Source: Microbacterium phyllosphaerae
GTDB taxonomy: Bacteria; Actinomycetota; Actinomycetes; Actinomycetales; Microbacteriaceae
Length of the DNA: 64,000 nucleotides
Assembly (NCBI RefSeq): GCF_017876435.1
Contig: NZ_JAGIOA010000001.1
Coordinates: 2,542,001-2,606,000 of the forward strand
Direction: 5' to 3'
Positions 35,006 to 39,335 of this stretch are shown one piece after another (the stretch's first letter is position 1; each line of letters opens with the position of its first letter). The notes beneath the pieces were generated by a model. It searched no databases, was not told the DNA's origin, and saw only the letters and a program-made list of their open reading frames with translations. The translations under genes were made by a program, and so were the position numbers.

Positions 35006-37108
35006 TCAGGCGTCGATCGATTCCCGGGACAGGCGATCGGACGAGTCGATGATGAACTCGCGGCGAGGAGCGACCTCGTTGCCCATCAGCAGCTCGAAGA
35101 CACGACCTGCCGCCTCGGCATCCTCCATGCGCACTCGACGCAGAAGCCGCCCGCCGCGGTCCATCGTCGTGGACGCCAGCTGCTCGGCATCCATCTCACC
35201 GAGTCCCTTGTATCGCTGGATCGGCTCGTGCCAGCGCTTGCCGGCCTTGCGCAGCTTGGTCAGCAGCGCGTGCATCTCCTGCTCGCTGTACGTGTAGATC
35301 GTCTCGTTCGGCTTCGAGCCCGGGTTCATCACGATCACGCGGTGCAGCGGCGGCACCGCGGCGAACACACGCCCGTGCTCGATGAGCGGACGCATGTACC
35401 GGTAGAAGAGCGTGAGGAGCAGCGTGCGGATGTGGGCACCGTCGACGTCGGCGTCGCTCATCAGGATGACCTTGCCGTAGCGCGCGGCGTCGATGTCGAA
35501 GCTCCGCCCGGAGCCCGCGCCGATCACCTGGATGATCGACGCGCACTCGGTGTTCGAGAGCATGTCACCGACCGAGGCCTTCTGCACGTTGAGGATCTTG
35601 CCGCGGATCGGCAGCAGGGCCTGGAACTCGCTGTTGCGCGCGTTCTTGGCCGTGCCGAGGGCAGAGTCGCCCTCGACGATGAAGAGCTCGCTGCGCTCGA
35701 CCTCGTTCGTGCGGCAGTCGACGAGCTTGGTCGGCAGGGTCGAGGACTCCAGCGCGTTCTTCCGGCGCTGGGTCTCCTTGTGCGCACGGGCCGACACGCG
35801 GGCCTTCATCTCGGCGACGATCTTGTCGAGCAGCTGCGTCGCCTGGCTCTTGTCGTCACGCTTGGTCGAGCTGAATCGGGCGGCGAGATCCTTGCGGATC
35901 ACCTGGGCGACGATCTGGCGCACGGCGGGCGTGCCGAGCACCTCCTTCGTCTGTCCCTCGAACTGCGGCTCAGGCACGTTCACCGTGAGCACCGCGCTGA
36001 GCCCGGCGAGAACGTCGTCCTTCTCGAGCTTGTCGTTGCTGCCCACCTTGAGTCGGCGGGCGTTCTGCTCGACCTGCGATCGCAGCACCTTGAGCAGCTC
36101 CTGCTCGAAACCCTGCTGATGCGTGCCGCCCTTCGGCGTGGCGATGATGTTGACGAACGACCGGGTGATCGTGTCGTAGCCCGTGCCCCAGCGCATCGCG
36201 ATGTCGACGGCGCAGACGCGCTCGACCTCGGTGGCGACCATGTGACCGTCTGCCTGGAGCACCGGCACGGTCTCCTTGAAGGTCCCCTCGCCCTGGATGC
36301 GCCACGTGTCGGTGACGGGTGCATCGTTCGCGAGGTACTCGACGAACTCCGAGATGCCGCCCTCATAGTGGTACGACTTCTCCGTGGGCTGGCCTTCGAC
36401 CTCCGAGCCGTTCGCCGCACGCTCGTCGCGGATGACCAGCTCGAGGCCCGGGACGAGGAAAGCGGTCTGGCGCGCGCGGGTCTCGAGCTCGTTGAGCTGG
36501 AAAGCAGCGTCCTTCGTGAAGATCTGGTGATCCGCCCAGTAGCGGATGCGGGTTCCACTGGTACCGCGGGGCGCCTTGCCGACGACCCGGAGCTCGCTCT
36601 TGTCGCGGAACGGCGTGAACTTCGCGTCCGGTCTCTTCTCGCCCGAGTCCGCGAAGAGACCCGGCTCGCCGCGATGGAACGACATCGCGTACGTCTTGCC
36701 GCCGCGGTCGACCTCGACGTCGAGGCGCTCGGAGAGTGCGTTGACGACCGACGCGCCGACACCGTGCAGACCACCGGATGCCGCGTACGAGCCGCCACCG
36801 AACTTGCCGCCGGCGTGCAGCTTCGTGAACACCACTTCGACGCCGGTGAGACCGGTACGGGGCTCGACGTCGACGGGGATGCCGCGGCCGCGGTCATGGA
36901 CCTCGACGCTTCCGTCCTCGTGCAGGATGATGTCGATCTTCGAGCCGTTGCCCGCGACGGCCTCGTCGACGGCGTTGTCGATGATCTCCCAGAGGCAGTG
37001 CATCAGGCCCGGGGATCCGTTCGAACCGATGTACATACCGGGACGCTTGCGGACGGCCTCGAGCCCTTCGAGCACCTGGAGATGATGGGCGGAATACTCG
37101 GCGGTCAC
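35006..37108 (-). CDS. parE: DNA topoisomerase IV subunit B (GyrB/ParE type)
   Basis: ATPase subunit of a type IIA topoisomerase, 700 aa. The GHKL ATPase domain has EIIDNAVDEA (Glu41, Asn45) and GLHGVGASVVNALS; the toprim domain has IVEGDSALGTA and MSDADVDGAHI. ATP-lid and transducer regions are intact, ending in QRYKGLGEMDAEQL. Start GTG at 37108 is chosen; the upstream frame to 37204 gives a non-family, Arg-rich leader. Paired with parC across the cassette at 29.7-35.0 kb. Confidence 0.9.
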   Translation of the reverse strand: MTAEYSAHHLQVLEGLEAVRKRPGMYIGSNGSPGLMHCLWEIIDNAVDEAVAGNGSKIDIILHEDGSVEVHDRGRGIPVDVEPRTGLTGVEVVFTKLHAGGKFGGGSYAASGGLHGVGASVVNALSERLDVEVDRGGKTYAMSFHRGEPGLFADSGEKRPDAKFTPFRDKSELRVVGKAPRGTSGTRIRYWADHQIFTKDAAFQLNELETRARQTAFLVPGLELVIRDERAANGSEVEGQPTEKSYHYEGGISEFVEYLANDAPVTDTWRIQGEGTFKETVPVLQADGHMVATEVERVCAVDIAMRWGTGYDTITRSFVNIIATPKGGTHQQGFEQELLKVLRSQVEQNARRLKVGSNDKLEKDDVLAGLSAVLTVNVPEPQFEGQTKEVLGTPAVRQIVAQVIRKDLAARFSSTKRDDKSQATQLLDKIVAEMKARVSARAHKETQRRKNALESSTLPTKLVDCRTNEVERSELFIVEGDSALGTAKNARNSEFQALLPIRGKILNVQKASVGDMLSNTECASIIQVIGAGSGRSFDIDAARYGKVILMSDADVDGAHIRTLLLTLFYRYMRPLIEHGRVFAAVPPLHRVIVMNPGSKPNETIYTYSEQEMHALLTKLRKAGKRWHEPIQRYKGLGEMDAEQLASTTMDRGGRLLRRVRMEDAEAAGRVFELLMGNEVAPRREFIIDSSDRLSRESIDA

Positions 37109-37290
37109 AATCTCCGAGTCTATTCGCGATGCCCCGTCCGGGCCCGCAGACACTCCCCGCGGAGGGCCACTGGGGCACCGGCGCGTACGCGCTGAGCGAA
37201 ACACGCCGCAAACCGGGCATTAGTACAGCCACAGCGTGGTTACATTGAACACGCCCAACCAGCGAACCCGACACTCAAGGAGGCACCGTG

Positions 37291-37590: not shown

Positions 37591-38631
37591 TCAGGCGACG
37601 ACGACGCGTCGAACACGCGACGTCAACCGGGTGAGGATCTCCTCCCCGACCGTGTCGATGCGCTCGGCGAGCGTCGTCGCGCTCGACTCTCCGTGCTCGC
37701 CGGCACCGAAGAGCCACACCGGATCGCCGGCTCGCATGCCCGGCCACCCTGCGACGACCGCCGTCGTCGCGTCGATGCGACGGAGCTCACGCGCGCCCGC
37801 GGTCGTTCCGACGTGGGAGCCTGCGAGAGTCGAGGGGATGCCGTCGAACGAGCCGATCGCGATCACGGCCTCATCATCGCGGACGGTGACGACCGTCGCG
37901 ATGAGCTCCGCGACGGGGAGCACACCGTCGAGCTCCGGACCGTCAGCCGAACGGACGCCGTAGCAGAACGCGCCGATCCGCGACACGGATCCGCGCAGCT
38001 CCGGTCGCCACCACGATGCTGCGGATGCCGTCAGGTGCAGCGCCTCCGGGGTCGGCCCCGACGACTCGGCCACACGGACGGCCTCGAGGAACACCGCCTG
38101 AGCGTCGTCATCCTCGGCGTCGCTCGCCTCGGCGAGGTGGCTCCAGATGCCCGCGAGTTCGAGATGACCCGCAGCCTCCGCCGCGCGGACGTCCGCGATC
38201 GTCTGCTCCCACTCCTCGGGGAGGAGTCCGTTGCGGTGCAGTCCGGTGTCGATCTTGAGATGGACGCGGGCGCGCACGCCCTGGGCCCGTGCCCGGGTGA
38301 CGATCCGGGTGAGGTACTCAGCCGATCCCACTCCCAGATCGATCCGGTCGTGCAGCGCGTCGTCGATCTCCGCGTCGGTCGATGTCACCCAGGCTAGGAT
38401 CCTCCCGGTGTCGCCCAGCACGCGTCGCGCCTCGACTCCGCTGCCCACGTCATACGAGCCGTACCACTCGACGCCTGCCTCCGTGGCCGCGTCGACGGCC
38501 CACCGCAGCCCGTGGCCGTAGGCATCGTCCTTCAGCACGACCATCAACGTCGACGGGGCGATGCGCTCGCGGACGGCGGCGATGTTCGACACGAATCTGT
38601 CGGTGCGGATGCGCAGCTCCGGGCGAGTCAC
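37591..38631 (-). CDS. Alanine racemase-like protein retaining the PLP lysine but lacking the C-domain tyrosine
   Basis: A 346-aa alanine racemase homologue with a complete PLP barrel: Lys34 in VVLKDDAYGHG, Arg133 in KIDTGLHRNG, His165 in WSHLAEASD, Ser203 in TASAAS and Arg218 in SRIGAFCYG. In ordinary Alr the C-terminal beta domain then shows a VSYG tyrosine, which acts as the second catalytic base in the partner subunit. Here that stretch is missing: the sequence passes from LPVAELIATVVTV straight to AIGSFDG, the GYADG equivalent. The end LTSRVRRVVVA is normal. GTG at 38631 overlaps the upstream gene's stop by 4 bases. Its neighbour supplies exactly the lost part. Confidence 0.85.
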   Translation of the reverse strand: MTRPELRIRTDRFVSNIAAVRERIAPSTLMVVLKDDAYGHGLRWAVDAATEAGVEWYGSYDVGSGVEARRVLGDTGRILAWVTSTDAEIDDALHDRIDLGVGSAEYLTRIVTRARAQGVRARVHLKIDTGLHRNGLLPEEWEQTIADVRAAEAAGHLELAGIWSHLAEASDAEDDDAQAVFLEAVRVAESSGPTPEALHLTASAASWWRPELRGSVSRIGAFCYGVRSADGPELDGVLPVAELIATVVTVRDDEAVIAIGSFDGIPSTLAGSHVGTTAGARELRRIDATTAVVAGWPGMRAGDPVWLFGAGEHGESSATTLAERIDTVGEEILTRLTSRVRRVVVA

Positions 38632-39335
38632 GCCTCCCACCCCCGGTCGGCGTGCGAACCGGCCACCGCGATGAGCTCGGCGATCGTGAGCCCGGTCACG
38701 GCGCTCCAGCGCGCGAGACCAGGGCCTGCAGACCCTCTGCCGCCGAAGTACGTGGCATCCTCCCCCAGCTCGACGTCGTCCGAGCCCTGGAGGTCGATCA
38801 CGCACACGTCCATCGCGACACGCCCGACGATCGGCCGCGACGCACCGGCGATCTCGACGGTCGCCGCGTTGCCGAGCGCACGGACGATGCCCTGCGCGTA
38901 CCCCCCTGTGATCAGCGCCGCGGTGGTGTCCTGCGTCGCCCTGTGCGTGTAGCCGTAAGAGACGGCATCCCCGGCCTTGAGCGGCTTCGTCGAGAGGACC
39001 CTCCCGGCGAGCCGCATCACCGGAGTCGTGCGAAGCGTGCCGTCTGCATCCGGGAGTCCGTAGAGAAGGGATGCGTCGATGTCGGCCACGCCCTCGGTGA
39101 GCGCCTCGATGCCCTCGAGGCGCAGCGCCTCGACCTCTTCGGAATGGTCCACCAACACCGCGGCTGCGCCGGCGGCGGTCACGGCGTGGGCGATCGCGAG
39201 CACCCCATGCCCCCAAGCATCCCTGCGCAGATCGGCGACACGGCCCCCTGCGTCGACGGCGGCGGTCGATGCCGCTGCCAGAGCCGACCGGGAGATCACC
39301 GCGCGTGGACGGGAGCTGGATGTCTTCTCACACAC
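38628..39335 (-). CDS. Alanine racemase-like protein with intact C-terminal domain but reduced barrel lacking the PLP lysine
   Basis: A 235-aa protein matching the two ends of alanine racemase. At the usual PLP-lysine motif it reads DLRRDAWGHG, with Arg37 instead of Lys and Trp41 instead of Tyr. The barrel is cut to about 60 residues and then resumes at SLLYGLP. The C-terminal domain is complete: Tyr127 in AVSYGYTHRA (the second catalytic base), GGYAQG, and Met175-Asp176 in GRVAMDVCVIDL. Alone it cannot bind PLP normally. It is translated just before the complementary protein (4-base overlap), which suggests a heterodimer. Start GTG at 39335. Confidence 0.83.
   Translation of the reverse strand: MCEKTSSSRPRAVISRSALAAASTAAVDAGGRVADLRRDAWGHGVLAIAHAVTAAGAAAVLVDHSEEVEALRLEGIEALTEGVADIDASLLYGLPDADGTLRTTPVMRLAGRVLSTKPLKAGDAVSYGYTHRATQDTTAALITGGYAQGIVRALGNAATVEIAGASRPIVGRVAMDVCVIDLQGSDDVELGEDATYFGGRGSAGPGLARWSAVTGLTIAELIAVAGSHADRGWEA

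Follow-up and report, generated by a model that had tools for sequence, protein, structure and literature searches.

Two overlapping genes of Microbacterium with complementary halves of an alanine racemase-like active site: a putative heterodimeric diamino-acid racemase

Alanine racemase (Alr) is a textbook drug target, a homodimer with two composite active sites. Its residues are given here in Geobacillus numbering, placed by motif on the Alr of the genome under study. In published Alr structures, Lys39, Arg136, Arg219, Ser204, Tyr43 and Tyr354 come from one subunit, and Tyr265', Tyr284', Arg290', Arg309' and Met312' from its partner (PMC3485190, PMC4517790, PMC3245724); Arg309 has no prime in PMC3245724, and the middle-layer isoleucine has one in PMC4517790. 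Two of these papers present position 354, a tyrosine in Alr, as a specificity gate (PMC3485190, PMC4517790), and in one studied Alr an Asp or Glu at this position lowered the racemisation of alanine (PMC4517790).

We analyse a pair of genes, called A and B, that resembles several described enzymes in part. The lysine-preferring racemase Lyr and the broad-specificity racemase Bar, in the excerpts of PMC3485190, have the Alr fold and, like A, a replacement of the tyrosine at position 354 that makes room for larger substrates; they carry Thr or Ala there and are single-chain homodimers, whereas the pair has Glu or Asp and two chains. Eukaryotic serine palmitoyltransferase, SPT1/SPT2, is a PLP enzyme with homodimeric relatives that became a heterodimer, as we propose for the pair, and it also resembles the pair in having the PLP lysine in one subunit only and presumably one active site; however, it belongs to the unrelated AOS family, and the excerpted text describes the loss of catalytic residues from SPT1 and no reciprocal loss from SPT2 (PMC6148460). 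In the heterodimeric beta-galactosidase LacLM, an unrelated hydrolase, two overlapping genes give one enzyme, as they would in the pair. Among the papers listed by our literature search none was seen to describe a two-gene or heterodimeric Alr, in line with the preliminary description of this locus, which knew of no such racemase, and the word heterodimer was not found in a 2021 racemase review (PMC8142540). Among the papers listed, likewise, none was seen to assign a racemase to the D-ornithine, D-lysine or D-diaminobutyrate of type-B peptidoglycan.

The gene pair and the division of its active site

The window, that is, the whole stretch of DNA that was analysed, comprises 64,000 nucleotides of the genome of Microbacterium phyllosphaerae. 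Both genes lie on its reverse strand and start with GTG: the gene for subunit B, at 38628..39335, encodes 235 amino acids, and the gene for subunit A, at 37591..38631, encodes 346. As the preliminary description had it, the two frames are open and overlap: by open reading frame analysis, the four nucleotides GTGA at 38628..38631 (reverse strand) hold the stop of B and the start of A, an overlap that suggests translational coupling, and this geometry is kept in 45 of the 56 pairs in which it can be read. The conserved gene beside the pair, at 35006-37204 of the window, is one that we take to be of ParE type; it adjoins the pair in Microbacterium as well as in Agreia and Leifsonia.

Subunit A consists of a complete PLP barrel and a C-domain without the segment of the catalytic tyrosine. 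Subunit B keeps the first part of the barrel, lacks the barrel stretch with Arg136, His166 and Arg219, and continues into a full catalytic C-domain. The Pfam profiles reflect this division: Ala_racemase_N is matched whole on A, at 8-227, and Ala_racemase_C only in its later part, at positions 34-126, and B matches Ala_racemase_C alone. Both proteins miss the equivalog cut-off of NCBIfam TIGR00492, set at 168 bits, A with 124.5 bits and B with 87.6 bits. In structure prediction the monomer folds of both match Alr. The pair is like Alr (PF01168 + PF00842, PLP fold-type III) in fold, in PLP motif and in an active site set between two subunits, and it has the catalytic and PLP-binding residues of Alr in common save position 354; it differs in that Alr has these residues in one gene and forms two sites, whereas the pair would form one site from two genes, with Glu or Asp in place of Tyr354. 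In our best reading, the pair would work like Alr, yet the family rules do not class it as an Alr. In the databases, named entries for A read 'alanine racemase'; those for B read 'alanine racemase' or 'alanine racemase C-terminal domain-containing protein', with a few 'hypothetical protein'.

To see how stable the division is, 57 A and 56 B proteins, taken from the best B matches of the genus/order and family searches, were aligned with three single-chain Alr references. One locus (L066) proved to be a single-chain Alr and was moved from the pair rows to the references; the B gene of L032, broken across frames, was left out of the counts. In A, Lys39, Tyr43, Arg136, His166, Ser204 and Arg219 are each present in 57/57 rows, the PLP lysine being Lys34 of the window's A (codon 38530..38532, reverse strand); position 136 is Arg in all rows and position 137 Asn in 54 of 57, an Arg-Asn pair, looked for as a mark of Lyr and Bar, that two of the three canonical references also carry. 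Conversely, the Tyr265 segment and Met312 appear in no A row, Tyr284 in 9/57 and Arg290 in 2/57. In B, Tyr265, Arg290 and Met312 are kept in 56/56 rows, Arg309 and Tyr284 in 54/56, and position 313 is Asp in 52 and Asn in 4; in the window these include the catalytic Tyr127 (Tyr265 of Alr, codon 38955..38957) and Met175-Asp176 (Met312-Asp313, codons 38808..38813), both on the reverse strand. Lys39, Arg136, His166 and Tyr354 are found in none of the 56 B rows, and Arg219 is aligned in 3. The place of the PLP lysine, occupied by Arg37 in the window (codon 39225..39227, reverse strand), holds R in 43 rows, A in 7, D in 4, E in 1 and S in 1.

No row, A or B, has both catalytic bases in one polypeptide. 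Together with the published assignment of residues to subunits, these counts imply that each protein retains its own half of one site only. The residues that the preliminary description had listed are all there, K34, R133, H165, S203 and R218 in A, without a VSYG segment, and R37, W41, Y127 and M175-D176 in B, most of whose barrel is gone; the lysine or tyrosine that it found missing was looked for elsewhere in A and B by alignment with the three canonical references, and was not found. Both genes are under purifying selection, with dN/dS ratios of 0.10-0.31 by a simple count; one comparison of the neighbouring ParE gene gives 0.07.

Distribution of the pair in Microbacterium and beyond

We searched 98 genomes with B, then with A: 59 of Microbacterium, the source included, and 39 from other families of the order. 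A split-type B was called at E <= 2.6e-28, weaker matches being single-chain Alr, and A at E <= 8.5e-73. Both genes are present in 48 of the 59 Microbacterium genomes and neither in the other 11, so that the question raised in the preliminary description, whether the two always occur together, has a positive answer in these 59 genomes: neither gene is found alone. In each of the 48 genomes they are adjacent, on the same contig and strand. Among the 11 pairless genomes, 10 are at least 99% complete, and G046 is 81% complete.

Across 299 genomes of the family, B is matched at E <= 1e-25 in 36, belonging to 16 of 85 genera, including the single-chain Alr of L066 that had been taken as a locus. 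Order-wide, in 297 genomes of which 13 are Microbacterium, a strict profile threshold of E <= 1e-56, which weaker members could escape, yields B in 10 genomes, all of them Microbacterium. Among the 120 database matches of B listed, those that name an organism are from Microbacterium, except one labelled Streptomyces sp.

No remnant of the pair was found beside ParE in 15 pairless loci, those of 10 genomes plus L101, L103, L104, L105 and L106; L108 and L111 have a partial A at a contig end, and were not counted as pairless. In a tree of ParE (FastTree, 30 chosen genomes, support values not shown), the pairless genomes occupy three places. Consequently, the pair was probably lost repeatedly in Microbacterium, as repeated L-Lys walls would allow.

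A few records deserve a separate word. The contig of L105 is titled Stenotrophomonas maltophilia and has a Microbacterium-like ParE gene with 88% identity to the query; it is probably a contaminant or a mislabelled record. In L032, from a draft genome (G042), B extends across two frames and A is intact. In Homoserinibacter gongjuensis (L148 and L227), A lies in two frames, broken after the barrel and before the final part of the C-domain, which may be a sequencing error or real decay.

Position 354 and the probable substrate

The preliminary description had treated the two genes as halves of an alanine racemase, and had proposed to look for a canonical alr elsewhere in the genome. Two more loci of the source genome do match both Pfam profiles in one open frame, and both keep the PLP lysine and Tyr265: one has Tyr at position 354 (L001, G000:C1:1489347), the other His (L002, G000:C1:911030). 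A His at this position is also seen in paralogues from Labedella, Okibacterium, Homoserinibacter, Leifsonia, M. maritypicum, M. resistens and a Curtobacterium.

In A, the residue aligned with position 354 is Glu330 in the window (codon 37642..37644, reverse strand); it is Glu in 49 and Asp in 8 of the 57 rows, and never Tyr. An acidic residue near the PLP phosphate would be chemically unusual, which counts against our reading of the site. Having lost the tyrosine that confers alanine specificity, A is probably not part of an alanine racemase in Microbacterium: the Alr fold and site residues of the earlier identification stand, and the acidic gate in all rows speaks against alanine. This replacement goes beyond the preliminary description, as do two other findings, single-chain relatives with an acidic position 354 and a second split pair in Agreia.

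The relatives were found in 49 genomes, reached via named loci and searched whole with the B profile; the Alr-like copies listed were read, the Agrococcus copy being unreadable at position 354. The split pair occurs in 19 genomes, a single-chain Alr with Glu or Asp at position 354 in 8, neither in 22, and both forms in none. A single-chain Tyr354 Alr accompanies the pair in 17 of these 19 genomes; the two exceptions are Agreia. The single chain has Glu354 in three Curtobacterium, Frigoribacterium and Frondihabitans, and Asp354 in Clavibacter, Subtercola and Herbiconiux; each of the eight genes directly follows a Tyr354 Alr gene.

The cell walls of these bacteria suggest a substrate. The excerpted sources report D-Orn in Frondihabitans, D-Lys in Frigoribacterium, L-DAB with D-Orn in Agreia, and diaminobutyrate (DAB) in Subtercola and Cryobacterium. 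The enzyme with an acidic position 354 has Glu in the first three of these genera and Asp in Subtercola. In Microbacterium the wall diamino acid varies by species, being D-Orn, L-Lys or DAB, and D-Orn is reported for M. testaceum, M. indicum and M. maritypicum, according to excerpts of PMC10757982; the same source gives L-Lys for M. gubbeenense, M. imperiale, M. arborescens and M. enclense, which have D-Orn neighbours. Genomes of the first three species, from strains that are not always the type, are pair-positive. Among the pairless genomes, only G037 could be assigned to a species through protein identity: its Alr is identical to an M. lacticum record. The wall of M. lacticum contains L-Lys.

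The six Cryobacterium, four Agromyces and one Plantibacter genomes have only a Tyr354 Alr, and the walls of Agromyces and Plantibacter also contain DAB: in these genera D-DAB must therefore come from elsewhere, and the rule does not extend to the whole family. We know of no assay of any single-chain enzyme of the Glu/Asp354 type. With exceptions such as Cryobacterium, an enzyme with an acidic position 354 is consistent with a racemase that acts on ornithine, lysine or diaminobutyrate and serves the synthesis of type-B peptidoglycan.

Origin of the split and rival readings

The trees bear on how such a pair could arise. In a barrel tree of 79 rows (IQ-TREE), all Glu/Asp354 proteins, split or single-chain, fall on one side of a branch with support 100/100, and the second A of Agreia groups with the Tyr354 Alr of Subtercola at 100/93. 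On barrel trees, a single origin of all A is rejected for the 29 Glu/Asp rows (p-AU 0.0008), and so is a single A clade that includes the two Agreia Tyr354 proteins (p-AU 1.5e-5). One clade of B is not rejected (p-AU 0.37), the C-domain being too short to settle the matter for B; B is only tentatively linked to the tandem's Tyr354 copy. Subtercola has the full-length tandem between glmS and tsaB, and Curtobacterium has it between glmS and tsaE. The Microbacterium pair lies beside the ParE-type gene, whereas the single-chain tandem is found at glmS-tsaE or tsaB.

The split probably goes back to two full-length racemases, encoded side by side, that lost complementary parts. Tandem homodimeric paralogues, with the Tyr354 copy upstream and the Glu/Asp354 copy downstream, would have formed mixed dimers; complementary halves would then have been shed, once or more leaving the Glu/Asp barrel, in Microbacterium and relatives, with a partner C-domain.

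The two draft genomes of Agreia each have two split pairs, the second of the Tyr354 type (L209, L210), with A preceding B, the opposite of the order in Microbacterium. In A. bicolorata, this second locus reads glmS - A(Tyr354) - B - tsaE - tsaB/rimI - tsaD. At this glmS-tsaE locus, the Tyr354 barrel gene would have lost its tyrosine and its neighbour the barrel. D-Ala is needed for peptidoglycan, and searches with two profiles found no single-chain Alr in the two drafts; the second pair should therefore work. We lean, on balance, to the view that the same split evolved more than once, in mirror image, and that split racemases probably supply Agreia with D-alanine as well as D-ornithine, in the absence of any conventional Alr. 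Alternatively, D-Ala in Agreia may be formed by transamination. No class IV gene tested passed the cut-off of the NCBIfam model for D-amino-acid transaminase; the genes tested were 4/4 of A. bicolorata, one of them with no match at E 1e-15, and 1/4 of sp. 1783. A. bicolorata has two aminodeoxychorismate-lyase-like genes (L276, L296), of which one scores under the cut-off of the model; the product of the second may act as a D-amino-acid transaminase. The mycobacterial aminodeoxychorismate lyase also has D-amino-acid transaminase activity, through which it can form D-Ala, and, when overexpressed, rescues an alr deletion, in the excerpted account of PMC8105722.

Our favoured reading, which we hold to be likely on the basis of the sequences, is that A and B are obligate partners in a heterodimer that has a single composite active site, a diamino-acid racemase whose product in Microbacterium would most likely be D-ornithine for the bridge of B-type peptidoglycan. 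The complex would be shaped like the Alr homodimer with a single site: A would contribute, from its barrel, the acidic position 354 along with the PLP lysine and the residues that bind PLP; B would contribute, from its C-domain, Tyr265' as second catalytic base, Met312' and, at the entryway, Tyr284', Arg290' and Arg309'. The other site would be lost with most of the barrel of B and the tyrosine of A. Glu354 or Asp354, in place of the tyrosine that selects alanine, would bind the side-chain amine of the diamino acid. The obligate one-site heterodimer was already proposed in the preliminary description, and we regard it as very likely: the complementary residues, the joint presence or absence of the genes, the conserved overlap and the Alr-like predicted folds all favour it, and assembly and activity are inferred from them. 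Granted the heterodimer, a diamino-acid substrate is quite likely.

The chief competitor keeps the active heterodimer but has it act on alanine, on serine or on a D-amino acid that is not used in the wall. The fold and catalytic residues are after all those of Alr, the split pair of Agreia can carry Tyr354, and Cryobacterium and Agromyces have DAB walls without a Glu/Asp354 enzyme in the genomes searched; but the gate is acidic in 57/57 A proteins, the source genome has a separate Tyr354 Alr, and, among the genera read, the Glu/Asp354 forms sit in genera whose walls are reported to contain D-Orn, D-Lys or DAB, which leaves this reading rather unlikely. Far less probable is the suggestion, also in the preliminary description, that one partner has become a regulator, binding the single-chain Alr as pseudoenzyme partners do. 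Each protein alone does lack one catalytic base, and a single-chain Alr is present in the genome; a regulator, however, would have no need of Tyr265, Met312 and Arg290 in 56/56 B, nor of Lys39, Arg136, His166 and Arg219 in 57/57 A, neither gene stands alone in the 59 genomes, and in Agreia no single-chain Alr was found to be regulated. That the genes are decaying remnants of a duplicated alr, or products of sequencing or assembly error, we consider barely credible: the deletions relative to Alr are large in both frames, and the frame is broken at two loci, in B of L032 and in A of Homoserinibacter, but the genes stand side by side in all pair-bearing Microbacterium genomes and in other genera, their dN/dS ratios are low and their catalytic residues invariant. 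A frameshift, or one gene split by a sequencing error that would join the frames, is ruled out by the same architecture throughout the pair-bearing genomes.

In the reading that we favour, Alr has apparently been turned into a strict two-gene, one-site enzyme whose dead parts have been deleted. If true, nature would provide a clear example of an obligate heteromer formed from duplicated homomers that lost complementary parts, and the single-chain relatives that persist in sister genera would serve for comparison. The pair is also a candidate for producing the D-ornithine, D-lysine or D-diaminobutyrate typical of much type-B peptidoglycan.
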